Below, one piece after another: positions 1-42,876 of a stretch of 42,876 nt of DNA. Within the stretch, counting starts at the first letter, position 1; every line of letters starts with the position of its first letter. The DNA is taken from IMG/VR virus record IMGVR_UViG_3300032291_002680, positions 1 to 42,876 of that record; one strand, 5' to 3'. Source of the DNA: a virus. The position numbers and the translations under genes were made by a program. The notes beneath the pieces are model-generated. The model ran no database searches. It had not been told where the DNA came from and worked only from the letters and a program-made list of their open reading frames with translations.

Positions 1-123
1 CAAGTTAGAACTTATCCAACTGCGGCGGCTGCAACAACGCTTTTAACTGCATTTTCTATGGGTATTCAAACCGATGCAACGGCTTATCAAACGCAGCAAC
101 CTTTGGCTGGTTCAATAGTTAAC
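1..123. repeat. Terminal overlap, left copy (identical to 42754-42876)
   Basis: Bases 1-123 are the same as the last 123 bases of the window. Both copies lie in the same reading frame of the tail-spike gene, so joining them restores one uninterrupted protein. This is what a circular or circularly permuted genome looks like after assembly. A genuine packaged direct terminal repeat is possible but unlikely in the middle of a structural gene. Confidence 0.95.
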
Positions 124-13760: not shown

Positions 13761-13972
13761 CTTAAAAACGATAGATGTTTATTCGAGCCATCGCCAGAGC
13801 CATAGCCAGAGCCATAGCCAGAGCCATCGCCAGAGCCAAAGCCAGAGCCAGAGCCAGAGCCATCGCCAGAGCCATAGCCAATGCCAGAGCCATAGCCAAT
13901 GCCAGAGCCAATGCCAGAGCCATAGCCAGAGCCAAAGCCAGAGCCAGAGCTTGTATTACTCATTTCGCTCAT
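13757..13972 (-). CDS. Gly-Ser-(Tyr/Phe/Ile/Asp) repeat protein
   Basis: 71 residues from the ATG at 13972, whose first base is the last base of the upstream gene's TAA (TAATG), so translation is coupled. A longer version would begin at 13984, but the coupled start is preferred. After M-S-E-M-S-N-T-S, about 54 residues alternate G-S with G-Y, G-F, G-I or G-D, ending in N-K-H-L-S-F-L-S. There is no transmembrane helix or Cys, and the chain is probably flexible or beta-spiral. I recall DUF6948-like phage proteins carrying such tails themselves; here the tail seems to be a separate coupled gene. Function unknown. Confidence 0.6.
   Translation of the reverse strand: MSEMSNTSSGSGFGSGYGSGIGSGIGYGSGIGYGSGDGSGSGSGFGSGDGSGYGSGYGSGDGSNKHLSFLS
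13785..13950. repeat. Hexanucleotide tandem repeat, GAGCCA/GAGCCT-like units
   Basis: About 165 bases of imperfect hexamers on the + strand (GCCAGA, GCCATA, GCCATC, GCCAAA and GCCAAT variants) encode the Gly-Ser repeats on the minus strand. Since all units are multiples of three, slippage would change repeat number without breaking the frame. It has no spacers, so it is not a CRISPR array. Confidence 0.85.
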
Positions 13973-14349
13973 TACTGTCTCCAAATTTTAACAGAGTCGA
14001 TTGATTTCTTAGCTTTATCTGTAACATCTAAAATTTCAATGCAATCTGTAACTTGAATTTTGCTAACTGCTTCTGGAAATTTACAATCATTCGGCTTTGT
14101 AGTTCCATCAATAGCAAGTTGCGACAAACTAGCTGCGCCTGACCAATACCAAATTCTACGAGCTTCTAAAATAATAGCTGTTTGAAAAACTATTGATTTT
14201 AAATAACCAGCAAATACGCCAGAATTAGAACATCTAATTAGCTTGTATTCTAAGCCATCTTTTGACTCTGCTTTTGTTTGGCTCTGAATTGAATCAACTA
14301 AAACATATTTTTTACCATTGATTGTAACTTCATTTTGTGTAATATCCAT
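13972..14349 (-). CDS. DUF6948-like phage protein
   Basis: 125 residues with a GAGGAG ribosome binding site before the ATG. The core (about 45-115) has S-G-V-F-A-G-Y-L, then A-R-R-I-W-Y-W-S-G-A-A-S-L-S-Q-L-A, then C-K-F-P-E, then E-I-L-x-V-T-x-x-A-K-K-S-I. I recognise this pattern from the DUF6948 family of phage proteins, whose function is unknown. Its TAA overlaps the ATG of the Gly-Ser repeat gene, suggesting the two are made together in fixed ratio. A small hairpin lies just upstream (14367-14384). Confidence 0.65.
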   Translation of the reverse strand: MDITQNEVTINGKKYVLVDSIQSQTKAESKDGLEYKLIRCSNSGVFAGYLKSIVFQTAIILEARRIWYWSGAASLSQLAIDGTTKPNDCKFPEAVSKIQVTDCIEILDVTDKAKKSIDSVKIWRQ

Positions 14350-17000: not shown

Positions 17001-17561
17001 TTAAACTTTCTCCTTGTTCAGTTCGGCTGCTGGTCGATAGTATCTAATCATTTCAGTTATAATCTTTTTGTTTAACTTAAACTCATTCTCAACCCATGAT
17101 TTATCTTCGCAGTCTGAAAATTTAAAAGCCTTAACTTCATCGAAGGTCATTTTTTTACAACCCCATAAAATATGATCGTCTAAAATTGTGACGAAGTATT
17201 TTGTATTAACTACTTGCAGAGGAGTAAATTTAAAACCGTTAGCCCTCGAAAGATCAGCCCTCGAAAGATCAGCCCCCGAAAGATTAGCCCTCGAAAGATT
17301 AGCCCCCGAAAGATTAGCCCCCGAAAGATCAGCCCTCGAAAGATTAGCCCCCGAAAGATCAGCCCTCGAAAGATTAGCCCACGAAAGATCAGCCCTCGAA
17401 AGATTAGCCCACGAAAGATTAGCCCTCGAAAGATTAGCCCACGAAAGATTAGCCCACGAAAGATTCTCGCCTACCTTCGCTGTAAATCTTTTGCCTGTAC
17501 TGTTATCTAGTAGCCACATTTTATGTTGTTCTAGTCTGATTCTTAATTCTTTTTGGGTCAT
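17001..17561 (-). CDS. Pentapeptide-repeat protein
   Basis: 186 residues. About 34-110 is an uninterrupted run of A-[ND]-L-S-x pentapeptides ([20 protein letters not shown]), which fold as a right-handed quadrilateral beta-helix. A C-terminal soluble domain of about 75 residues follows ([13 protein letters not shown], then D-E-V-K-A-F-K-F). The last part matches C-terminal tails seen on phage pentapeptide proteins. Some members (MfpA, Qnr) mimic DNA and bind gyrase; whether this one does is unknown. The ATG overlaps the stop of a 26-residue peptide (ATGA). Confidence 0.8.
17241..17465. repeat. 15-bp tandem repeat array, 15 units
   Basis: Fifteen contiguous 15-base units of AGCCC[TCA]CGAAAGAT[TC] encode the pentapeptide repeats on the minus strand. 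Variation is confined to two positions per unit, so the array is young or kept uniform by recombination. Each unit is one pentapeptide, so unit gain or loss keeps the frame. Confidence 0.9.
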
Positions 17562-18922: not shown

Positions 18923-19723
18923 TTATTTTTTAAAGGTCATTCTCCAATGACCTTTTGTATCTTTTTTTAATTTAGCAATTCCACCAATGTCATAAAAGTT
19001 ATGCTCTTTAGTTTTTAAGCACAAATCTATGATCTTATTTTTATTTAATTTATCAGACAAAAGTTCAACAATGTCCTTATCTGACACTAAGACCGCATCA
19101 CGATCTGTTAAATCTGGTGGCGTATCACTTGTCATAAGGTGATAAAACTGTAGGCAAGCAGCCAATATACGCTCTTGGTGAGCTTTATCTGGCGTAGCTT
19201 CGATCAACACTTTATCAATAATTCGGTAATCACCCATAAAAGGCTCAAGTTTACCGACATAAAAAAGGGTCTTAACCCCTTGGGCTACCATTAGTTGTTG
19301 CTGCACTTGTGAAATGTATGATTCTGAAATTTTACCTTCTAATGCTTTTTCATAAGTTGAAGCGCCTAAAACTGTTTTAATCTCTAATACGGTTCTAGTT
19401 TCTTCGTTCCAACCATCTAGCGAAGTCATTAAAAAACTGTAAACATCGTGAACAAAAATCTGCGGCTTAAAGTCTAGATCAAGCTTAAGCTCAATATCAG
19501 ATCGCATCGTGTCTTCGTATTTGATACCTAATTGTGCGTTAAGGCTTGGCGCAAACTCATTCTTAGCCCTACCTGTTTTCTTTAACCATAAACCATAAGG
19601 CGTTTCAAAAGGCGACTCGTTCAGTATAACTGGAACGTCAGAGCCGCCTATTCTTGTGCTTCTAAATTTTGCGTATTCTTCGCGGTTAGCTTTTAGTTGA
19701 TCTTCACTTATGTCGTACTTCAC
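18923..19723 (-). CDS. YqaJ-family phage recombination exonuclease (lambda Exo-like)
   Basis: 266 residues. The core of the YqaJ/lambda-exonuclease PD-(D/E)XK fold is clear: R-I-G-G-S-D-V (26-32), the helix P-Y-G-L-W-L-K-K-T-G (42-51), S-L-D-G (catalytic Asp, about 104), V-L-E-I-K-T (catalytic E-x-K, about 112-117) and Y-I-S-Q-V-Q-Q-Q-L-M-V (about 135-145). It should degrade the 5' strand of duplex ends to give 3' tails for annealing. The ssDNA-binding and Sak4-like genes lie directly upstream, forming one recombination operon. Confidence 0.85.
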   Translation of the reverse strand: MKYDISEDQLKANREEYAKFRSTRIGGSDVPVILNESPFETPYGLWLKKTGRAKNEFAPSLNAQLGIKYEDTMRSDIELKLDLDFKPQIFVHDVYSFLMTSLDGWNEETRTVLEIKTVLGASTYEKALEGKISESYISQVQQQLMVAQGVKTLFYVGKLEPFMGDYRIIDKVLIEATPDKAHQERILAACLQFYHLMTSDTPPDLTDRDAVLVSDKDIVELLSDKLNKNKIIDLCLKTKEHNFYDIGGIAKLKKDTKGHWRMTFKK

Positions 19724-19746: not shown

Positions 19747-20235
19747 TTACCAGTCCGAAGGAACTGGTTTAGTTGTTGTCGTAGTTTTCTTAACGCCTAA
19801 CTCAGCTTTAACTTTAGCGAACAATGCCGCTTGATTGTTAATGCCAGTTTGACCATCAAACTTAGTTAGACCAGAAGATTTAAGGTTTACCCACTTAACA
19901 GAAAGTCTCGAATTGTCTTCTTCCCAAGCTCCTGTTATTTCGTTCTTTTTTCTTCCATAACCAAACTCAACAGTGCGATCTTTAGTTCCATCAAACATGA
20001 TTGAACCTTTTTTAATGTCATCAAAACCGTTACCAAGATAACCCATTTGAATCAATGATTTAGCTGTGTACTCTTGAGATGCTTCTTTTAAACCGCCATA
20101 CCAAGTGTGACGATGTAATGAGCCATCATCAGCCTTAACTGACAACTCAACAAAAACTTGTGCGTCACCAGCTTTAGTAGTTGTTAAACCTGCGTCTGAA
20201 ATTTGTGCTTCGTACTTTTTCTTTACTATAAACAT
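19747..20235 (-). CDS. Putative single-stranded DNA-binding protein (recombination module)
   Basis: 162 residues, between the Sak4-like and exonuclease genes. Beta-rich (M-F-I-V-K-K-K-Y-E-A-Q-I-S, then V-F-V-E-L-S-V-K-A, then W-V-N-L-K-S-S-G) with a flexible Thr/Lys/Pro tail ending in P-S-D-W. This is compatible with an OB-fold SSB or DUF669-like protein, although the tail is less acidic than in host SSB. Position is the main evidence: Sak4, SSB and exonuclease genes occur together in many phages. Confidence 0.6.
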   Translation of the reverse strand: MFIVKKKYEAQISDAGLTTTKAGDAQVFVELSVKADDGSLHRHTWYGGLKEASQEYTAKSLIQMGYLGNGFDDIKKGSIMFDGTKDRTVEFGYGRKKNEITGAWEEDNSRLSVKWVNLKSSGLTKFDGQTGINNQAALFAKVKAELGVKKTTTTTKPVPSDW

Positions 20236-20244
20236 TTTTCTCTC

Positions 20245-21156
20245 CTATAGCGCGTTAGTCGCGTCTAATAACTTTTCTTTAATTCGTTGTAGTTTAGTGT
20301 TGTCGCCTTTTGCGGCAGCAAGCTTTTCTTTAGCTAATGCGGTTAATTCTTGATCGTGCGGCGCAAGCTTGATTAGTAGTGATTCAATGTCTTTGATAAT
20401 GTCATTAGAAGCCTTGGGTGCGTATGATTGCACAGCCTTCATGTATTCATCATAATCAAATGGAATTGACTCAGGCAAATTCAAGCGCGTCTTAGCGTCA
20501 AATCCAGCCGCATATCTAGTGTACATAACTCTAGAGCCATCACTGATGCCTTTAGCTTTCTTAGTCGTTTTATCAACCGATGTTTGCACATCGTATTTAA
20601 TGAAATAAACATTGTCACATTGACGAATTATCTCTTGACCGAAGCCTTCGTTACATTGAAGGGTGTAGCGATCAAATTGCTGTAGCAATGTAGGGTCGTT
20701 GAATTTTTTAATTAAAGAATGACCAGCAAGCCAAACATCAATTCCAGAATTTGCTACAGACCTAAGAGTAATCATAAATTCTTTTAATTTCTCTTTAACT
20801 GCCGCAGTTCCGCGACCATAAGGAATTTCGCCAACTTCTTTTACTCCATTTTGAGAGCAAATAAGGTTGTTAATGTAGTGTTCTAATGTGGTTACTGAAT
20901 CAATAGCTATAGCTTTATACTGATGAGTAGTTGTTTTTATTTCTTCTAAAAAAGCAACTAAAGATTCATAATCTTTTAGTTCCGAAGAAGAAATCCTAGC
21001 TACATCTAAAGCTTTGGAACTATCCTCAATATCCGCTATCAAAACACCGCCAACCCTGCTTAAAAATGTGGTTTTACCGATGCCAGGTAAACCATAAACA
21101 AGCGATATTTGTTTGTGCTCTTTTACTCCATTACTAACTTTTGACAATAAACTCAT
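20245..21156 (-). CDS. Sak4-like RecA-fold ATPase, single-strand annealing protein
   Basis: 303 residues. Walker A is G-L-P-G-I-G-K-T-T (22-30) and Walker B is A-I-A-I-D-S-V-T (82-89). The switch-like W-L-A-G-H-S (about 141-146) and a C-terminal helical region rich in K/L follow. This is the minimal RecA-core ATPase of the Sak4 / AAA_24 type that pairs homologous strands in phage recombination. Its long leader (21157-21240) has a promoter-like element shared with the RHH gene. A helicase-loader ATPase would be the alternative; the exonuclease neighbour favours Sak4. Confidence 0.75.
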   Translation of the reverse strand: MSLLSKVSNGVKEHKQISLVYGLPGIGKTTFLSRVGGVLIADIEDSSKALDVARISSSELKDYESLVAFLEEIKTTTHQYKAIAIDSVTTLEHYINNLICSQNGVKEVGEIPYGRGTAAVKEKLKEFMITLRSVANSGIDVWLAGHSLIKKFNDPTLLQQFDRYTLQCNEGFGQEIIRQCDNVYFIKYDVQTSVDKTTKKAKGISDGSRVMYTRYAAGFDAKTRLNLPESIPFDYDEYMKAVQSYAPKASNDIIKDIESLLIKLAPHDQELTALAKEKLAAAKGDNTKLQRIKEKLLDATNAL

Positions 21157-22047: not shown

Positions 22048-23307
22048 CTAAAACTCATATTTTCCTCTTTTCTTCTCAACTACTTGTGTATGTTCATACC
22101 AACCTATCTCACTGACTTTTGATTGTGCTAAGTTGGCGTTTAATTCAATCGACCTAAATTCACCATAACGAACCTTGATCGGTTTAATAAAATAACGATC
22201 TAAGTTTTTGTTTAAAGTGCTAGGCTCTTTGCAAAAGTTTAAAACACTTGAACATGGTTGTTTCGCTCGCTTTGAAGCTTTGCTATCGCCAAACTCGTCA
22301 CCTTGAGAGATAACTAGAATATGCGTGTTAGTTCGTTTTGAAAGTTCTTCCATGCCTACATAAAAATCTAACAACTCAGCCCACTCATCTTTTTTACGAG
22401 GTAATAAAACTTTCTCAGCGTAATCAATGATAATTAAGCCGCGCTTTAAACCATCAAATCTACGATAAACTTCAGCTTCAATTTGACTTTGGGTTAAAGC
22501 TTCGCCGTTGGTGTATTCTAAGTTAAACCTAGTTTTAATCTTAGAGTCGTATTCTTGAATTGACTTAAGTGTGCCTTCGTTAGCGTAGCGGCCTGTTCGC
22601 CAATCGTTGTTATTGATACCAGCGCCATTGTGAATAAAGCGTGAGCCGAAGTTAAACTCGTCCATTTCCATATTCACAAAAAGAACGTCCATTATTTCAG
22701 TAGCATTTTGGGCTAAAGAAACGCAGTAATTGGTTTTACCAACGCCTGACATAGCAGTAAGCATAGTAATTGATTTTGGGTTAAAACCTTGGATAAGCTC
22801 TGAGACTTTCTCGAAGCCTGGTATGGTAACGATAGCCGTACCATTTTTAATCATTTCTTCATTTGTTTTAACGAGTGATAAAACATTGTGCTTCATGTTT
22901 AAGATTTTAGTAGGTGTAGCTTGAGCTTTTTTGTACTCGTTTATGAGTTTATCTAAACACTCTGGCTCATCTTGTAGTCTGTTTTGAAAGACAATAGCCC
23001 AATACCTTTTATGACATTCTTCTTGCCTAGCTAAAATCTTTTTAACTTCTAATGGCAACATGAACGTATGTTTGCGAATAACACCAATATAATCTTTGTA
23101 CTCATTAAAGATCATAGTCTTTGCTGCTAAGAAGCCAAATCTAACCTTAGCGTTTAAATCTAAGGCTATGCTCTTAGGCTCACAATCAGGCCAAGTTGAA
23201 CCATCTATGCCATGAGCCACTAATTCGTTGTTCGAGGCTTCATCACGCAACCTACGCATGATTACGGCGTTCATAAAGTCTAAGTAATTATCGTCTATTG
23301 CGTACAC
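22048..23307 (-). CDS. DnaB-like replicative DNA helicase
   Basis: 419 residues, GTG start with GGGGAG four bases upstream. The RecA-type core has Walker A A-M-S-G-V-G-K-T (185-192), the F-V-N-M-E-M-D motif (210-216), Walker B L-I-I-I-D-Y-A-E (291-298) and the motif H-I-L-V-I-S-Q (329-335). The N-terminal 130 residues are shorter than in cellular DnaB and helical. It should unwind DNA at the fork. Its first 20 bases overlap the putative loader gene, matching their joint role. No primase domain is seen. Confidence 0.85.
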   Translation of the reverse strand: MYAIDDNYLDFMNAVIMRRLRDEASNNELVAHGIDGSTWPDCEPKSIALDLNAKVRFGFLAAKTMIFNEYKDYIGVIRKHTFMLPLEVKKILARQEECHKRYWAIVFQNRLQDEPECLDKLINEYKKAQATPTKILNMKHNVLSLVKTNEEMIKNGTAIVTIPGFEKVSELIQGFNPKSITMLTAMSGVGKTNYCVSLAQNATEIMDVLFVNMEMDEFNFGSRFIHNGAGINNNDWRTGRYANEGTLKSIQEYDSKIKTRFNLEYTNGEALTQSQIEAEVYRRFDGLKRGLIIIDYAEKVLLPRKKDEWAELLDFYVGMEELSKRTNTHILVISQGDEFGDSKASKRAKQPCSSVLNFCKEPSTLNKNLDRYFIKPIKVRYGEFRSIELNANLAQSKVSEIGWYEHTQVVEKKRGKYEF

Positions 23308-23830
23308 CGATCTCCCCTTTGATAGCGATAGTTAAGAAACCTCTGAAATCTTGGTACGGTGCACCTTTTAGTTCGGTGATTCTGTACTTATCCATGAACC
23401 AGCGTTTTTTAGCCCCCAAAAAGGCTATAAACTCATCGTGTTCAGTCCAAATTTCTTTTATGAGTGTTAGGTGCTCTGTGAAAGCGCGGTGAAGCTGTAC
23501 GGTTTTAAGCGTTAAATAATAATCATCTTGTTCTAATTCGGTATCTGGTGGCAAAACTACACGATCAACTAATGGCTTAGGTTCCATTAAAAAATCAACG
23601 TAATCAGTCCAACGACCATTAACAAAAGTAGAAAATAACAAAGTGTATTCTTTACTTATGCAATTAGCTTTAATATGGTTTGAGTAATTTTCTAAGGCAC
23701 GACTAAATTGATCTAGTTTATCTGGGTCGTGTACTAGCTTCTTAAGCTTCTTAAAGCCAGCTACTTTACCTTCTTTTCGTGGATATTTCGAGTATAATAA
23801 CTCACATACTTCTGTGTAATCAACTTCCAT
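23288..23830 (-). CDS. Putative replication initiator / helicase loader
   Basis: 180 residues with an AAGGAG ribosome binding site. The Y-P-R-K-E-G-K-V-A-G-F-K-K-L-K-K (15-30) element and the F-S-T-F-V-N-G-R-W-T-D-Y (about 67-78) element match phage replication proteins that sit just before DnaB-type helicases, where a Y-P-R-K helix and an x-x-W-L-N-x-x-R-W-x-D motif are typical. The gene borders the non-coding region 23831-24532, consistent with the origin there. The mechanism (origin binding or loading) cannot be read directly. Confidence 0.65.
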   Translation of the reverse strand: MEVDYTEVCELLYSKYPRKEGKVAGFKKLKKLVHDPDKLDQFSRALENYSNHIKANCISKEYTLLFSTFVNGRWTDYVDFLMEPKPLVDRVVLPPDTELEQDDYYLTLKTVQLHRAFTEHLTLIKEIWTEHDEFIAFLGAKKRWFMDKYRITELKGAPYQDFRGFLTIAIKGEIGVRNRR

Positions 23831-24532: not shown

Positions 24533-24718
24533 ATGCAAACACCAAAGAAAATTAAAACATCACTTAAGTTACAGATTTTATTCAACTCTATGTCTATCTT
24601 ACTAATATCTTATCTAATCGCTGTAGATGCGGTTCATACTGTGTCGGCAATCATTGGTTTTGTTTTAGCTATAGCCATTAAGTTAGCTAGCGATAACGTG
24701 GAGGATTTATGTCAATAA
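24533..24718 (+). CDS. Small two-segment membrane protein
   Basis: 61 residues after an AAAGGA ribosome binding site, first gene of the + strand island. A Lys-rich N-terminus (M-Q-T-P-K-K-I-K-T-S-L-K) precedes one or two hydrophobic segments, about 13-31 (L-Q-I-L-F-N-S-M-S-I-L-L-I-S-Y-L-I-A) and 34-52 (H-T-V-S-A-I-I-G-F-V-L-A-I-A-I). An acidic tail follows. Its end overlaps the RuvC-like gene by 10 bases. Function unknown; could be an envelope or exclusion protein. Confidence 0.6.
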   Translation: MQTPKKIKTSLKLQILFNSMSILLISYLIAVDAVHTVSAIIGFVLAIAIKLASDNVEDLCQ

Positions 24719-25248
24719 TCATCGGCATCGACCCTGGGATGACTGGCGGTATCTGCATCAGAGATTTAACCAATAATGAAATAGACTTAATGGTTATGCC
24801 AACTAAAGGCACTGTAAGGTTCACTAAGCTTATTGACACCGAGGCTATCGCAGATATGTTTACTGAAATTCGTAGTGAAATTAAGATGCTCTATATCGAG
24901 GAAATCTTTGCTATATCTAGCCAAGGCTCTGCTTCCATGCTTAGTTTTGGTCGTGGGTGGGGACAGATACTAGGTGTGATACACACGCTTAAAATCCCTT
25001 ACTACGTGGTTAGGCCGCAAGAATGGCAAAAGTATGTCTTACCTAAAGGTAAGGCAGGTACGACTAAGATTAGAGCCTTGCAAATGACTAATGAATTATT
25101 CCCTCATGTTGAACTAAGAGCAAGCGAGCGATCTAAGCTAGCCCACGAAGGTAAAGTAGATGCTCTATTGATTAGTGAGTTTGGTGTAAGACATTACAAA
25201 CATAGACTTGATATATCTAGCTTGAGTATTGAGAAAGTCGAGGCATAA
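24709..25248 (+). CDS. RuvC-like Holliday-junction resolvase / RNase H-fold nuclease
   Basis: 179 residues with GGAGG four bases before the ATG. The RNase H-fold acidic residues fit RuvC: D8 in I-G-I-D-P-G-M-T-G-G, E64/E65 in L-Y-I-E-E-I-F-A, and H146 with D151 in A-H-E-G-K-V-D-A-L-L-I-S-E. Length equals that of bacterial RuvC (about 170). It would cut four-way or branched DNA before packaging, useful in a Sak4-driven recombination pathway. The next gene begins two bases after its stop. Confidence 0.8.
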   Translation: MSIIIGIDPGMTGGICIRDLTNNEIDLMVMPTKGTVRFTKLIDTEAIADMFTEIRSEIKMLYIEEIFAISSQGSASMLSFGRGWGQILGVIHTLKIPYYVVRPQEWQKYVLPKGKAGTTKIRALQMTNELFPHVELRASERSKLAHEGKVDALLISEFGVRHYKHRLDISSLSIEKVEA

Positions 25249-27193: not shown

Positions 27194-27763
27194 CTATCCT
27201 TCCTTCAAAGCCGTTATGCGGTTTGGGTTTAATAAGTTGTCTATACCTAAATAAGTCATGTTCATTTTTTCAGCGTATTCTACGCACTCAACATAAACCA
27301 TTGTCGAAGTGATAGCCCTATGGCCTAACGCCCGCTTGCAAAACATAATGTCACGCGTAGCCTTGTAAAGCTCAACGCCAAAGGTATGCCTAAAACAGTG
27401 AAAGCTTTTGGTTATGCCCTTTGGCCTTCTTGCATACCATTGTTGACGAACATAAGTCGTTGAAAAGTCGAACAAATGATAGGTCGGTAAAGCTAGTAAA
27501 GCTTGCACAAGATCGTCACTTATTTTGATTTGTCTGTTTTCACTGCCTTTAGTAGCTTCGATTAAGATTATGCCGTTCTTTTCGTCGATGTGGTCTTTGG
27601 TTAACAAGATTAGCTCTGACTGTCTAGCGCCAGTAGTTAAAGCTATGCGGCACATAAGGCCAAAGCGATCATTGGTTATGCTTGCTTGTATTGCTTCAAG
27701 CTCTTTAGCGTTGAAATACTTTTCTTGGGTTATGCGATGGTTTGAATTTGGGAATTGAGTCAT
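27194..27763 (-). CDS. Tyrosine recombinase, catalytic domain only
   Basis: 189 residues; start overlaps the upstream TGA as ATGA. The full active-site set is visible: R47 in T-G-A-R-Q-S-E, K72 in A-T-K-G-S, H122 and R125 in H-C-F-R-H-T-F, H148 in L-G-H-R-A and nucleophile Y157. Residues 1-20 are too short for an arm-binding plus core-binding domain, so this resembles the small FimB/FimE-like recombinases rather than a typical 320-400 residue integrase. It may integrate the phage, resolve multimers or invert DNA. Confidence 0.8.
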   Translation of the reverse strand: MTQFPNSNHRITQEKYFNAKELEAIQASITNDRFGLMCRIALTTGARQSELILLTKDHIDEKNGIILIEATKGSENRQIKISDDLVQALLALPTYHLFDFSTTYVRQQWYARRPKGITKSFHCFRHTFGVELYKATRDIMFCKRALGHRAITSTMVYVECVEYAEKMNMTYLGIDNLLNPNRITALKEG

Positions 27764-28044
27764 AAGTTACTCGCTTTCGACTTTTGTAGGTCTTCAAAGT
27801 GTTTTAATGTTAGTTGTTCTATTATCTTAAACATATCTGTGTTATGGTCGTTATTTAAGACCATTGATTGAAGTATTTTTTGAATCAAAAAAGCCTTGTC
27901 GAAAGCTTGCAAAACTTTAGAGTATTGAACCATATCGGCGCAATCTGAATAAACCACAAAGCGCGATGACCTCATGTCATCGTTATACTTTGGCGCGTCT
28001 TTTAGTCTGTTTAAAATTATTTCATAGTTAAAATTATTTCGCAT
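27760..28044 (-). CDS. Unknown helical protein
   Basis: 94 residues, ATGA-coupled to the recombinase gene downstream. Mostly alpha-helical (Y-E-I-I-L-N-R-L-K-D-A-P, then F-D-K-A-F-L-I-Q-K-I-L-Q-S-M-V), with one Cys and no transmembrane segment. The start follows the previous stop by one base. No family recognised. Confidence 0.55.
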   Translation of the reverse strand: MRNNFNYEIILNRLKDAPKYNDDMRSSRFVVYSDCADMVQYSKVLQAFDKAFLIQKILQSMVLNNDHNTDMFKIIEQLTLKHFEDLQKSKASNL

Positions 28045-28045
28045 A

Positions 28046-28351
28046 TTACTTTCTACTTTCTAAGACTTTCAAAAGTCTTTTGATGTATCTTGGCTTTGCT
28101 TTGATATGTAAGCACTTTGTTTCGTCTTCGCCAGTTTTATAGTCTATTGTTGAAGTCCAGCCATATATGTTTATAGAGTCATTAAAAGAGTCTATATGTT
28201 CAATGCCTTGTTGCCTTAACTCGTAAAGTATATCTTTTATCGAATAACTAGCGTCTTCAAAAATAAAACCTTGATCTTTAAAGTCGCCTAATTCGCAAGA
28301 CTCTGGCGTGACTGCTTGGTAGGTTTGTGAGACTGTGAATAATTGCTTCAT
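28046..28351 (-). CDS. Unknown phage protein downstream of dnaN
   Basis: 101 residues, alternating strand/helix (F-T-V-S-Q-T-Y-Q, then C-E-L-G-D-F-K-D-Q-G-F, then S-F-N-D-S-I-N-I-Y-G-W). It ends with a basic helix (K-P-R-Y-I-K-R-L-L-K-V-L-E-S-R-K). The S-C-E-x-G-D pattern recalls small phage proteins of unknown function. Start lies one base after the clamp gene's stop, so the two are likely co-translated; a clamp-related role is only a guess. Confidence 0.55.
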   Translation of the reverse strand: MKQLFTVSQTYQAVTPESCELGDFKDQGFIFEDASYSIKDILYELRQQGIEHIDSFNDSINIYGWTSTIDYKTGEDETKCLHIKAKPRYIKRLLKVLESRK

Positions 28352-28352
28352 G

Positions 28353-29384
28353 TTATCCCCTCATTGGCATAATTACAGCTTCAAAGGCTTGGCTAGTGAT
28401 TCGCACAGGACTAAGCGAGTCGTTTATTTTAACGCTTACATTGTCTTGATCTACACAAGTTAAAGCGTCTAATAAGTAGCTAGCGTTGATTGCAAGCTTG
28501 GGATTATAAATGCCTTCTTGGACTTCGTTATTGATCTTGCCTAAGTCTAAGCTCAAGTCTGGACTAATTTGCAATTTGTTTGAATCAAACTTAATGTTTT
28601 TAGTTTTTTTGTCAGCAAGCTTTTCGGCTTTTTTGACTAGGCTTAAAAAGTCCTTAGTCGTGCCTTGAATCAAGTGCTTAAAGTTCTGTGGAATAAATTG
28701 ATTATAATTAGGGTACTTGCCTTCAATTTTTCTAAACACAATACGAGTTGAGGCATTAAGACTGACAAAAATACTTGTGTCATTGTGGCTTACATCAATA
28801 TAGTACTGATTAAGACATAGTTTTACTGCCTTACTAGGCATCATAAAACTTGTGTTAAAAGTAGTGCTTAATGACTTGTGTAGTCTATGGCCATCGGTAG
28901 CGACAAGAAAGCCTTTAGCGTCGAAAAATACAGACATTAAGTGAAAGCGTGTTTCGTCTTTTGACATGGCAAAACTTACAGCTTTTAAACCTAAGACGTT
29001 GATTGACTCTTTAGGCGCTGAACTTAAAAAGTCTATTTTGGGCCATGACTCGGTTTGATCAGTTAAGGTTTTTTTAAGGTCTTTAAAGCCAAGTTCAAGG
29101 CCATTCTCGGTTTGAGCAAATTCGATGTATGTTGAGTCTATGCAATCAAGAAAGTCTTTTAATTCTGAAGGCTCGATTAAATAAACGCTAGGCTTAAAGT
29201 CTAAAGCTACGGCCAAAGACTTTTCAAAGCTAACGTCTAAGTTAGTTGACTGAAGTCTTATGCCTAAGTCGTCGGTAATAATGGCTAGGTTTTGAATTGT
29301 CGGCATTGTGTTCCTACGCTCAACAAGTGTTTTAGCTTGTTTGATAGCGTCTAAGAGTGTTTTTTTGTTAATCTCTGTTTTCAT
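28353..29384 (-). CDS. dnaN: DNA polymerase III sliding clamp (beta subunit) homologue
   Basis: 343 residues from ATG 29384; a longer frame opens at 29447 with an implausible basic extension. Clamp hallmarks run along the chain: R-R-N-T-M-P-T-I-Q-N-L near the N-terminus (bacterial clamps: R-x-T-L-P-I-L-x-N), A-T-D-G-H-R-L-H mid-protein, G-K-Y-P-N-Y-x-x-x-I-P and a C-terminal V-I-M-P-M-R-G. Length is close to E. coli DnaN (366). It would encircle DNA and tether polymerase III. Since no polymerase gene is present, it most likely recruits host Pol III. Confidence 0.9.
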   Translation of the reverse strand: MKTEINKKTLLDAIKQAKTLVERRNTMPTIQNLAIITDDLGIRLQSTNLDVSFEKSLAVALDFKPSVYLIEPSELKDFLDCIDSTYIEFAQTENGLELGFKDLKKTLTDQTESWPKIDFLSSAPKESINVLGLKAVSFAMSKDETRFHLMSVFFDAKGFLVATDGHRLHKSLSTTFNTSFMMPSKAVKLCLNQYYIDVSHNDTSIFVSLNASTRIVFRKIEGKYPNYNQFIPQNFKHLIQGTTKDFLSLVKKAEKLADKKTKNIKFDSNKLQISPDLSLDLGKINNEVQEGIYNPKLAINASYLLDALTCVDQDNVSVKINDSLSPVRITSQAFEAVIMPMRG

Positions 29385-29499: not shown

Positions 29500-30174
29500 T
29501 TAACCTGATATTTCTTTAGCTAAGAACTTTAAAAGCTTTGCAGCTTGTGACTTACTTAGGTCTTTTAGCTGAATATTAACTAAATGATTTGAACTAACTT
29601 GAAGCTCAAGCTCAACGTCGCCATGATATTGAACGTTAGCCTCATTTATTCCGAGTCTTGACTCAAATCTAGTTAAGTTCTCATCGACCTTATAATGTTG
29701 CGAGTTATGCATAACACCGCTAGGAACTAGCTTAAATAGATCTTTAGTTATCTGTTGTCTTTGCTCATGTTTATTATTTTGAGCGTCTTTATAGGCTTTA
29801 CATTTAGGTAATAACTCTAAGTATAAGTCTAACTGTAAACGCTTTTTTATATCAGAAACAATTTTTTCAACATCTTTACCAAAACTAAAGCCTATTCTTT
29901 CATTGAATGACTCGACTTTTAAAACGTGCTTCCAGTCGCTAAAGCTTGCATAACTATTTTCTTTCCAGTAACTAGGCCAGCGAACAGAAGCCTCAACGTC
30001 GCCCTTATAACCAAAGCTAAAGCCTATTCGACCTCCGTTAACATGGTCTATTTGTGTCCAGTGATTGATTTCTTTATCTTCTTTAAAAGTCCAGCCCTTG
30101 CCTAGTAGCTTTGCAATCTGAGCTATTTTTGCGGCCTTTTCCTGATTAGTTCCGTTAAATACTGTTTGTTTCAT
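29500..30174 (-). CDS. Unknown protein with internal repeated motif
   Basis: 224 residues, first sizeable gene of this minus-strand block. The motif [GE]-R-I-G-F-S-F-G occurs twice (about 48-56 and 91-98), each followed by a charged segment, suggesting a duplicated domain in the N-terminal half. The C-terminal half is helical then beta, ending in A-K-L-L-K-F-L-A-K-E-I-S-G. Soluble, Lys-rich. No family recognised; early expression is expected from its closeness to the promoter at 30422-30451. Confidence 0.65.
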   Translation of the reverse strand: MKQTVFNGTNQEKAAKIAQIAKLLGKGWTFKEDKEINHWTQIDHVNGGRIGFSFGYKGDVEASVRWPSYWKENSYASFSDWKHVLKVESFNERIGFSFGKDVEKIVSDIKKRLQLDLYLELLPKCKAYKDAQNNKHEQRQQITKDLFKLVPSGVMHNSQHYKVDENLTRFESRLGINEANVQYHGDVELELQVSSNHLVNIQLKDLSKSQAAKLLKFLAKEISG

Positions 30175-39822: not shown

Positions 39823-42800
39823 ATGGCAAATCAAACGGTCACCACAACAGTTAATTACGATAGCGCGGCGATTGCTCCGCTACTTGATGGTGAAACAATT
39901 TCTGTCAACGGTGGCTCTCTTACAATTAACGCCGACACTCGACATAACCAACAAGCCGCCGTCTTTGGAAATATAACAATATCGTCAACTTTGGGCGGTG
40001 TGGTTGCGATAGATGGTACGACTATTTGGGAAGTTCCATTTTCTGCATCGACTGGCAACGTACCGACACAAGCGGCACTAGGTTCTAACGGCGTAACAGG
40101 CGGCACAAGCGGCGCAACAGGTGAGTTAACAAGAGTGTGGGCTACTGGTGCATTTAACCCTTCGGCGGCTGGTGGAGCTATGCCAGCAACGGGGTTTATT
40201 AAATTAAGAACTAAAACTGGAAACTTTACCACAGGCGAAACAATTACTTTAGCAAATGGCGCAACGGTCACAGCATCAAGCGCAGGAAAGCGAAGTTGGA
40301 TTCATGTAGTGGGAAATTCTGGATCGACTTTGCTTATGCCTCGGTTGGCATCGGTACCAGTCACGGGCGACTGGTATGCTTTAGGCACAACAAATGGAGC
40401 CGACAATCAAACAATTCAAATGCCAGTTAGGGACGAATTTCCTGCGGTGCAAATTGAAACTTCGGCAGGGTCAGGCGTGTATGAATGGTGGGCTAATGCT
40501 GGTGATGCGTGGAATGGGACCTATCCAAACAGCGATTCTTGGGTTTTAACAAACGCAACTTTCACAAGAAATTTTATTGCTGGGCCAGCAAATAACCCTG
40601 CGGCAGATCGACTAAGGGAAACATCGGTTTCGGGAAATCATCTTGTCACTGGTATAAACTTACAAGCTGCACAAATGGACACGGGTTCGTACACTCATTC
40701 AGCGATTGTCAAACAAGAAACTCGACAATGGTGTGTGGTTCAAATTTCTACTAACGGCGGCACTGATCGTTACGGTGCTCTAGTTGATCTTGCGGCGGGT
40801 ACTATTATCGCAAATCCAAGCGTGGGAAGTCCTACAGGCGTTTCGTCTTCAATTACTTCACTAGGTAACGGCTGGCATCAGGTCAATGTTACTTTAACAC
40901 ACTCAACTGGAAATCTTACAAGCTTTGTGGCGATTGCTGATTCTGCAACGCCTACTTATACGACTGGACTTCCAACATATACAGGCAACACAGCGCAAGG
41001 AATTTATCTTGGATTTTCAACAGTAAATCAAGCAACACACGCCTTTATTGCAACCGATGTTCGGGGAAAGTTTTTCTATTCAGACCCTTTTGCTGGGACA
41101 ATTACTTTTGCAAAACGTGGCACAAACAACGCAGGATTTAAGCCACCGACTGGTTGTGCGATACGAATACCTAACATCATTCTTGGAACGTCAACGGCTG
41201 GCGATTACACAGCTCAATTTTTGGCGTATCAAAGTTCTATAAGATATGCTTTCAGAATTGATACTGCGGTTGTGGATTTTGATAAAATATCATGCAATTG
41301 GATTACAACCAATGTTACGCCAACCTCTTACAGAATGCAGAATTCTGCAATTAGTGTAGTGCAGACAATAGTAAATTTTAACTCGGAACTACGAAACTGT
41401 TGTATTGCGCCTACTTTGTATTACAGACTTAATAGTGGAGCATACAGTTTACAAAATTCCGCAAACGGCTATATATATGATAGTCGCATTGTCTCTCGTG
41501 GCGCAGGACAAGTTGTACATCAGGTTATCACATCGGCAAATATCAACGCTTACCGATGCAGTTTTGAGTCGATTGGTCATAATCAAGGCAAGGCGGCTAG
41601 AATAGCATTGGCCCAGCCAGTCGTTAACGTGGTCAGTGCTGGTGGTGAATACGTTGATTGCACTTTCATCGGCGGCGGCGGTCAGTTTAACGTGCAAAAT
41701 TTTTCAATCAGAAATTCAAAGTATTGCGACAACATGATTGGAACAACGCCAGCTTTTGCCTCGCAAGCTTTTAACGTGACAGGAACCAACATTGTCATCG
41801 ATGGAATTACACATATTGACGGTATTGCAAACAATCACCCATTTACACAATACGTAACAACATCTTTAGGTTTTACAACTAATCTTTTAGTAAAAAATAT
41901 CGGAACACTTGCAGCTCCGCTAAACGCTGGAACAGTAAACCCTTGCGGTTATATTTACGCTCAGGGTTCCGCTGGTACGCTGGCCGAAGTGCGTAGATGC
42001 TATGTTAATAATTTGCGACTTGGCGTAATAAACACAGTTAATTCAGCACCGATTTTGAATTTATATGATGTTTGGGGTGACGGAACAACGCCACAAACGC
42101 TTGCAGTGGGAAATTTAATTTCTCGAGGTGGAAGGTGGATAAATCAACGAACACCCTCCAGCTCTTGCTTAGGGGCGCACTGGGACGATGCTTATACTTC
42201 TTCAACAACTGGTCGAATCACAATTATGGCAAATGAGCCGTCGTCAACAACTGGTACACAGTGCTCGTACACTCTCGGACTAGGTTCGGGCTTCAACGGC
42301 TCTGGTTCAGTTGTTGTGTCACGCTTGACAGACGTTGTAAATTGGACAACACCTGTTAAAATTTACGGACATAACTTTTTAGCTGGCGGTTGTGCTTTAT
42401 CAGGAACCGACTGTCAGAATTTAATTTTTGAATATAAAATAGATACAGGCTCAGGTTTTGGCGGCTCATGGACTTTCTTAGCAAATACAGTTCGTCGCTC
42501 GGCTGGTGGGGTAGCAGGAACAAATACCGTCACACTCACAACCGCAGATCGAACCGCATTAACAAGACAACCTCAAATCGGTGACTTTGTTCAATCGGGT
42601 TCATTTAGGCTTCCAGCAAATACAACTGTCACGCTTGTCGTTGGTGACGTTGTGACTTGTTCAAATAACTTTGTAACCAATTTATCAACAAATGAGTTCG
42701 TGACTTTCTCGCCCGTGAACGTAGCAGTGAGCGCGGCAAATGGTTACTCGTTACAAGTTAGAACTTATCCAACTGCGGCGGCTGCAACAACGCTTTTAAC

Positions 42801-42876
42801 TGCATTTTCTATGGGTATTCAAACCGATGCAACGGCTTATCAAACGCAGCAACCTTTGGCTGGTTCAATAGTTAAC
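39823..42876 (+). CDS. Tail spike/fibre protein, N-terminal part (continues at base 1)
   Basis: 1018 codons open to the window end, continuing through the 123-base overlap to stop at 366; joined length about 1098 residues. Residues about 1-200 are beta-rich and probably bind the tail. About 220-405 resembles a jelly-roll carbohydrate-binding module (S-W-V-L-T-N-A-T-F-T, Y-T-H-S-A-I-V-K, L-G-N-G-W-H-Q-V-N-V-T-L). About 405-760 has the spaced N/G-I-x-I turns of a right-handed beta-helix. The rest forms C-terminal beta domains. Likely the host-receptor or polysaccharide-binding spike; catalytic residues could not be identified. Confidence 0.75.
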   Translation, partial: MANQTVTTTVNYDSAAIAPLLDGETISVNGGSLTINADTRHNQQAAVFGNITISSTLGGVVAIDGTTIWEVPFSASTGNVPTQAALGSNGVTGGTSGATGELTRVWATGAFNPSAAGGAMPATGFIKLRTKTGNFTTGETITLANGATVTASSAGKRSWIHVVGNSGSTLLMPRLASVPVTGDWYALGTTNGADNQTIQMPVRDEFPAVQIETSAGSGVYEWWANAGDAWNGTYPNSDSWVLTNATFTRNFIAGPANNPAADRLRETSVSGNHLVTGINLQAAQMDTGSYTHSAIVKQETRQWCVVQISTNGGTDRYGALVDLAAGTIIANPSVGSPTGVSSSITSLGNGWHQVNVTLTHSTGNLTSFVAIADSATPTYTTGLPTYTGNTAQGIYLGFSTVNQATHAFIATDVRGKFFYSDPFAGTITFAKRGTNNAGFKPPTGCAIRIPNIILGTSTAGDYTAQFLAYQSSIRYAFRIDTAVVDFDKISCNWITTNVTPTSYRMQNSAISVVQTIVNFNSELRNCCIAPTLYYRLNSGAYSLQNSANGYIYDSRIVSRGAGQVVHQVITSANINAYRCSFESIGHNQGKAARIALAQPVVNVVSAGGEYVDCTFIGGGGQFNVQNFSIRNSKYCDNMIGTTPAFASQAFNVTGTNIVIDGITHIDGIANNHPFTQYVTTSLGFTTNLLVKNIGTLAAPLNAGTVNPCGYIYAQGSAGTLAEVRRCYVNNLRLGVINTVNSAPILNLYDVWGDGTTPQTLAVGNLISRGGRWINQRTPSSSCLGAHWDDAYTSSTTGRITIMANEPSSTTGTQCSYTLGLGSGFNGSGSVVVSRLTDVVNWTTPVKIYGHNFLAGGCALSGTDCQNLIFEYKIDTGSGFGGSWTFLANTVRRSAGGVAGTNTVTLTTADRTALTRQPQIGDFVQSGSFRLPANTTVTLVVGDVVTCSNNFVTNLSTNEFVTFSPVNVAVSAANGYSLQVRTYPTAAAATTLLTAFSMGIQTDATAYQTQQPLAGSIVN
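42754..42876. repeat. Terminal overlap, right copy (identical to 1-123)
   Basis: Exact duplicate of the first 123 bases in the same frame of the tail-spike gene. It supports a circular map and marks an artificial cut point rather than a biological end. Confidence 0.95.

Follow-up and report, generated by a model that had tools for sequence, protein, structure and literature searches.

Why should a phage bring a sliding clamp into a cell that already has one? The window analysed here, the whole virus record IMGVR_UViG_3300032291_002680 with a length of 42,876 nt, raises this question, for which the papers that we found offered no explanation; a literature search on phage clamps without a polymerase returned no paper directly on the subject. 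Using sequence and structure comparisons we asked what the clamp gene of this virus encodes, which replication genes accompany it, whether other phages show the same arrangement, and which function best fits its residues. The features referred to below are collected in Table 1.

Table 1. Features of the window, with positions counted from its first letter.
Feature	Position	Strand	Basis or remark
Direct terminal repeat, 123 nt	1..123 = 42754..42876		Exact identity
Pentapeptide-repeat protein, 186 aa	17001-17561	-	Pfam Pentapeptide 1.9e-29, PHROG 7713
YqaJ/RecE-like exonuclease	18923..19723	-	Pfam, PHROGs
Sak4-like ssDNA annealing protein (AAA_24)	20245..21156	-	PHROG 124, 2.2e-43; Pfam
DnaB-like replicative helicase, C-terminal motor domain	22048..23307	-	Pfam DnaB_C 2.1e-17, PHROG 19
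Possible replication-initiation protein fragment	23288..23830	-	PHROG 270, weak, 2.9e-8
RuvC-like resolvase	24709-25248		Pfam/PHROGs
Tyrosine recombinase catalytic domain, 189 aa	27194..27763	-	Pfam Phage_integrase 3.5e-18; overlaps the 94-aa gene by 4 nt
94-aa protein without assigned function	27760..28044	-	Same operon, 1-nt gap after the 101-aa gene
101-aa protein without assigned function	28046..28351	-	Begins 1 nt past the stop codon of the clamp gene
Bacterial-type beta sliding clamp (DnaN homologue), 343 aa	28353..29384	-	Pfam, PHROG 947, PDB phmmer, AF2 model + Foldseek
224-aa protein without assigned function, upstream of the clamp	29500..30174	-	QLDLYL at residues 114-119

The clamp reading frame runs on the minus strand from an ATG at 29384 to a stop codon ending at 28353. 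An in-frame TTG 21 codons upstream provides an alternative start, which we consider less likely. A preliminary description of this DNA had assigned the product to the DnaN family from three motifs, ATDGHRLH, GKYPNY and VIMPMR, and all three were recovered in the translation. Profile searches placed the protein in the same family: the Pfam domains DNA_pol3_beta_3 (1.6e-14) and DNA_pol3_beta (1.2e-11) scored above their cut-offs, and the central DNA_pol3_beta_2 fell slightly below (4.4e-5; 24.2 bits, cut-off 27 bits), so that N-terminal, central and C-terminal clamp domains were matched in the correct order. PHROG 947 aligned over the full length (E 2.8e-42, profile positions 3-364 of 368), and a phmmer search of the PDB retrieved solved beta clamps (7e-17). 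The score against the NCBIfam model TIGR00663 (dnaN) was 135.1 bits, 2.5 bits short of the equivalog cut-off of 137.65, a narrow miss, as would be expected if the protein is a diverged homologue and not the product of a host gene copied recently.

The predicted structure agrees with this assignment. An AlphaFold2 model computed with 27 viral relatives (pLDDT 87.8, pTM 0.85) contained the complete three-domain clamp fold, and its best 50 PDB matches in Foldseek were all bacterial DnaN proteins (TM 0.74-0.83). The protein shares this fold (TM ~0.8) and the partner groove with the clamps of E. coli, Rickettsia and Thermotoga, but it is 23 residues shorter than E. coli beta, and the canonical DNA-contact and dimer residues are largely replaced. 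Its identity to the other clamps compared was at most about 27-28%, and in the tree it formed a very long terminal branch (4.8) whose placement had no resolution. Peptide-pattern searches detected no close relatives of the clamp, the helicase or the upstream neighbour among viral contigs, and only distant bacterial dnaN genes among genome contigs. The protein is thus a genuine beta clamp of a phage, strongly diverged, and adds a member to a phage gene family already known.

The interpretation of a clamp without a polymerase depends on the completeness of the genome. The exact terminal repeat and an open reading frame at the end of the record (39823-42876) that continues in frame into ORF 58-366 across the junction (42811-39823 = 2988, divisible by 3) indicate, judged from the letters, that the record very probably covers the whole genome, with a length of 42,753 bp. 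The joined frame (39823-42876 plus 1-366) comprises about 1,098 codons across the record ends and, by its position, likely encodes a tail or fibre protein. The statement of the preliminary description that polymerase, primase and clamp loader genes are missing was borne out, as none was recognisable in Pfam scans of the window ORFs or in PHROG comparisons of the main ORFs, and whole-genome searches for PolIII alpha, PolA, PolB and DNA_pol3_delta2 (the clamp-loader delta-prime family) were negative. A complete phage-encoded replicase, with polymerase and loader of known families in one genome, is therefore absent. The same description had listed a DnaB-type helicase together with a probable helicase loader. 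The helicase was confirmed, but the AAA protein at 20245-21156 is Sak4-like, and the term loader is best replaced by this Sak4 protein or by the initiator fragment. Besides the recombination genes in Table 1, a methyltransferase and a MazG-like pyrophosphatase are encoded (Pfam/PHROGs).

Two repetitive regions were observed elsewhere in this genome. A 15-nt periodicity at 17196-17510 underlies the pentapeptide-repeat protein, whose repeat family includes known DNA mimics. A 12-nt repeat array at 13761-13976 reads on the minus strand as a Gly/Ser-rich peptide.

To relate the clamp sequence to function, groove and interface residues were taken from PMC11139829 and DNA contacts from PMC5042465, and both were mapped by alignment to an enterobacterial clamp. 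In the partner-binding groove, 15 of 17 residues are conserved or similar; those kept are, in E. coli numbering, R152, L155, T172, G174, H175, R176, L177, P242, N320, Y323, V360, M362, P363, M364 and R365. The Pol III alpha-binding groove, whose conservation the earlier description had left to be checked, is thus retained. Conservation is lower among the canonical DNA-contact or pore residues (3 of 11) and at the dimer interface (3 of 7), for both classes the lowest or next to lowest count among the clamps compared; in the same alignment, bacterial clamps kept 12-17 of 17 groove, 4-11 of 11 DNA-contact and 4-7 of 7 interface residues. R73 is changed to S and R80 to D. F106, the position of which is aromatic in nearly all other clamps, is replaced by L, and the adjoining interface strand is three residues shorter. 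Nevertheless, the six pore helices carry a net charge of +5, inside the span of 3 to 8 found for bacterial clamps; the losses are made up by lysines located in domains I and III, in the first helix of each. This charge makes the anatomy compatible with a working ring, for which the interface is the weakest point. In E. coli, most single changes at DNA-contact positions of the clamp are viable (PMC5042465).

Taken together, the DnaN fold, the conserved groove, a net charge of the pore helices within the bacterial range and the lack of a recognisable polymerase, primase or loader support the proposal that the protein is a working, diverged ring clamp, loaded by the host loader and holding host Pol III on phage DNA; the low conservation of DNA-contact and interface residues counts against it. 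On balance we favour this reading as the probable one, with moderate confidence. In the wake of the DnaB-like helicase of the phage, the host clamp loader would place the phage clamp on primed viral DNA. There the groove would bind host Pol III alpha by its C-terminal motif, with host repair polymerases and ligase as possible further partners. A dedicated clamp supply would keep the host replicase on phage DNA. In this proposal we infer that the protein dimerises, that the host loader loads it, that it binds host Pol III and that the phage benefits. The suggestion of the preliminary description that the clamp acts with host Pol III gains from these data, since Pol III is the only plausible replicase in the absence of a phage polymerase and the groove is conserved; its second suggestion, a block of host clamp-dependent processes, found no support in this analysis. 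Phage-encoded processivity factors are also known in the form of T4 gp45 and other viral PCNA-type clamps, but T4 gp45 acts together with a polymerase and a loader of the phage itself and lies outside the bacterial beta family.

The arrangement recurs in other phages, and this counts in favour of the working clamp. A protein search of 50,697 phage records yielded 26 with a clamp. Several of these (Salmonella, Campylobacter A11a, Staphylococcus, Enterococcus) resemble bacterial DNA under a phage label; the dnaN of Campylobacter phage A11a is a near copy of an enterobacterial clamp, suggesting contamination. The order dnaA-dnaN-recF-gyrB is that of the usual chromosomal origin region, and it was seen in LR134132.1 (Klebsiella 'plasmid 12'), probably a misassigned piece of chromosome. 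Real carriers include the Rhizobium phages 16-3, RR1-A, RHph_X2_25 and RHph_TM3_3_14B, the Sinorhizobium phages AP-16-3 and NV1.1.1, Aurantimonas phage AmM-1, Microcystis phage Mae-JY04 and Synechococcus phage S-H1. Together with at least 442 clamp-encoding stretches in a profile scan of IMG/VR and 164 structural matches in BFVD (E up to 0.001), many of them annotated as beta clamps, these isolates indicate that bacterial-type phage clamps are common. The earlier view of phage clamps as uncommon does not hold for what is a named phage family, PHROG 947. The window's terminase has counterparts with 90% identity on two IMG/VR contigs.

The PHROG 947 members, annotated as 'DNA polymerase processivity factor' (in 16-3, RR1-A, RHph_X2_25, AmM-1, Mae-JY04 and S-H1), are likewise full-length bacterial-type clamps, and like the window their phages have genomes (39-69 kb) without a recognisable DNA polymerase. 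They share only 20-28% identity with the window clamp, and the genes around them differ. The majority belong to alphaproteobacterial phages in which, unlike in the window, the clamp gene lies within recombination/replication operons. Family A and C polymerases were absent from 58 of 58 other clamp records (9/9 isolates, 49/49 IMG/VR), and family B polymerase from all nine clamp-bearing isolate phages. Among the related phages tested, a clamp without a recognisable polymerase is, as far as these sequence searches reach, the usual condition. Since the 58-record sample is dominated by alphaproteobacterial (pro)phages, and the clamps of all loci compared form about 18 clusters at 50% identity, we take this as a recurrent arrangement and not as a rate for all phages.

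The gene contexts of these clamps bear on a first alternative, in which the clamp acts at recombination intermediates, linking the phage Sak4 and exonuclease with host polymerase, and serves recombination-dependent replication or repair rather than bulk replication. In rhizobial phages, 66 to 70 of 92 loci contain on one strand the series Sak4, DUF669 SSB, clamp, small ORF and Cas4/RecB exonuclease, and in phage HK620 the SSB that partners Sak4 is DUF669 (PMC5928155). The window likewise encodes a Sak4 protein and a YqaJ exonuclease. However, the module is limited to a single clade of clamps, which accounts for 4 of the 18 clusters formed at 50% identity, and 18 clamp records outside it lack Sak4, so that a general link between Sak4 and clamp was rejected as clade-specific. 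In eight other, non-Sak4 clamp phages a gene of ~310-350 aa with a DUF2303 match adjoins the clamp or lies in its vicinity, and no neighbour gene is common to all contexts compared. The window clamp itself belongs to a different operon, 7 kb from Sak4. The frame between Sak4 and exonuclease (19747-20235) was considered as a DUF669 SSB, and profile comparison gave no match.

Nor was a conserved clamp-binding motif found in the presumed partners. The downstream exonuclease of the rhizobial clamp phages contains QLRLF in 45 of 68 proteins, compared to 2.8 expected, but other clamp phages have KRRIF, TLRIF or KLSIF at this position, and we rejected QLRLF as a clamp-binding motif. These variants and an adjoining conserved G..EE segment indicate that QLRLF is probably part of the nuclease core. 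With the module confined to one clade and Sak4 located 7 kb away, a recombination role is conceivable but rather unlikely for the window clamp, and is not general.

The divergence between the groove and the other two residue classes suggests a second alternative, namely that the protein kept the groove, lost DNA encirclement and acts as a decoy, stopping host replication by sequestering Pol III, Hda or repair polymerases of the host. The 15 of 17 groove residues, set against 3 of 11 DNA contacts and 3 of 7 dimer residues, are what would be expected of such a protein. The clamp fold is nevertheless complete, the pore helices are still net positive via other lysines, the canonical DNA contacts vary in bacterial clamps too, and most of the E. 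coli single mutants mentioned above are viable. Moreover, a decoy would starve a phage that depends on host Pol III. We regard this explanation as improbable, and give an equally small chance to the broader notion of a non-encircling phage clamp that serves as a soluble decoy or scaffold controlling host clamp-binding proteins; if true, a phage clamp would have given up DNA encirclement and kept its partner groove. Just as doubtful is that the protein stands in for a host clamp put out of action, be it by a toxin, a defence system or the clamp inhibitor of a competing phage: escape from such an inhibitor could yield the extreme divergence seen here, but no clamp inhibitor was identified in the window.

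Dedicated partners encoded next to the clamp were considered, as the preliminary description had suspected two adjoining genes. The 101-aa protein has relatives in two Pseudomonas phages of 57-58 kb, whose inspected stretches bear no clamp annotation, the upstream 224-aa protein has no detected relatives, and none of the 94-aa protein were found among the clamp loci compared; the proposed partnership thus gained nothing from these comparisons. An AF2 prediction of the 224-aa protein from its single sequence (pLDDT 35) was too low in confidence for use. The suggested search for QLxLF-type motifs gave six consensus matches in the window proteome versus 4.6 expected from shuffles, that is, no enrichment above chance. 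In the four operon neighbours of the clamp, two matches were found versus 0.3 expected (P ~0.04), the better one being the QLDLYL of the 224-aa protein. These motifs may serve as a lead for a partnership and are suggestive at best.

The window clamp represents an extreme sequence of its family, showing that selection keeps the groove while individual DNA-contact and interface residues drift. Clamp-only phages show that a clamp is worth encoding by itself, and the recurrence of such genomes makes the question of why a phage carries its own clamp testable in isolates, for example in Rhizobium phage 16-3.
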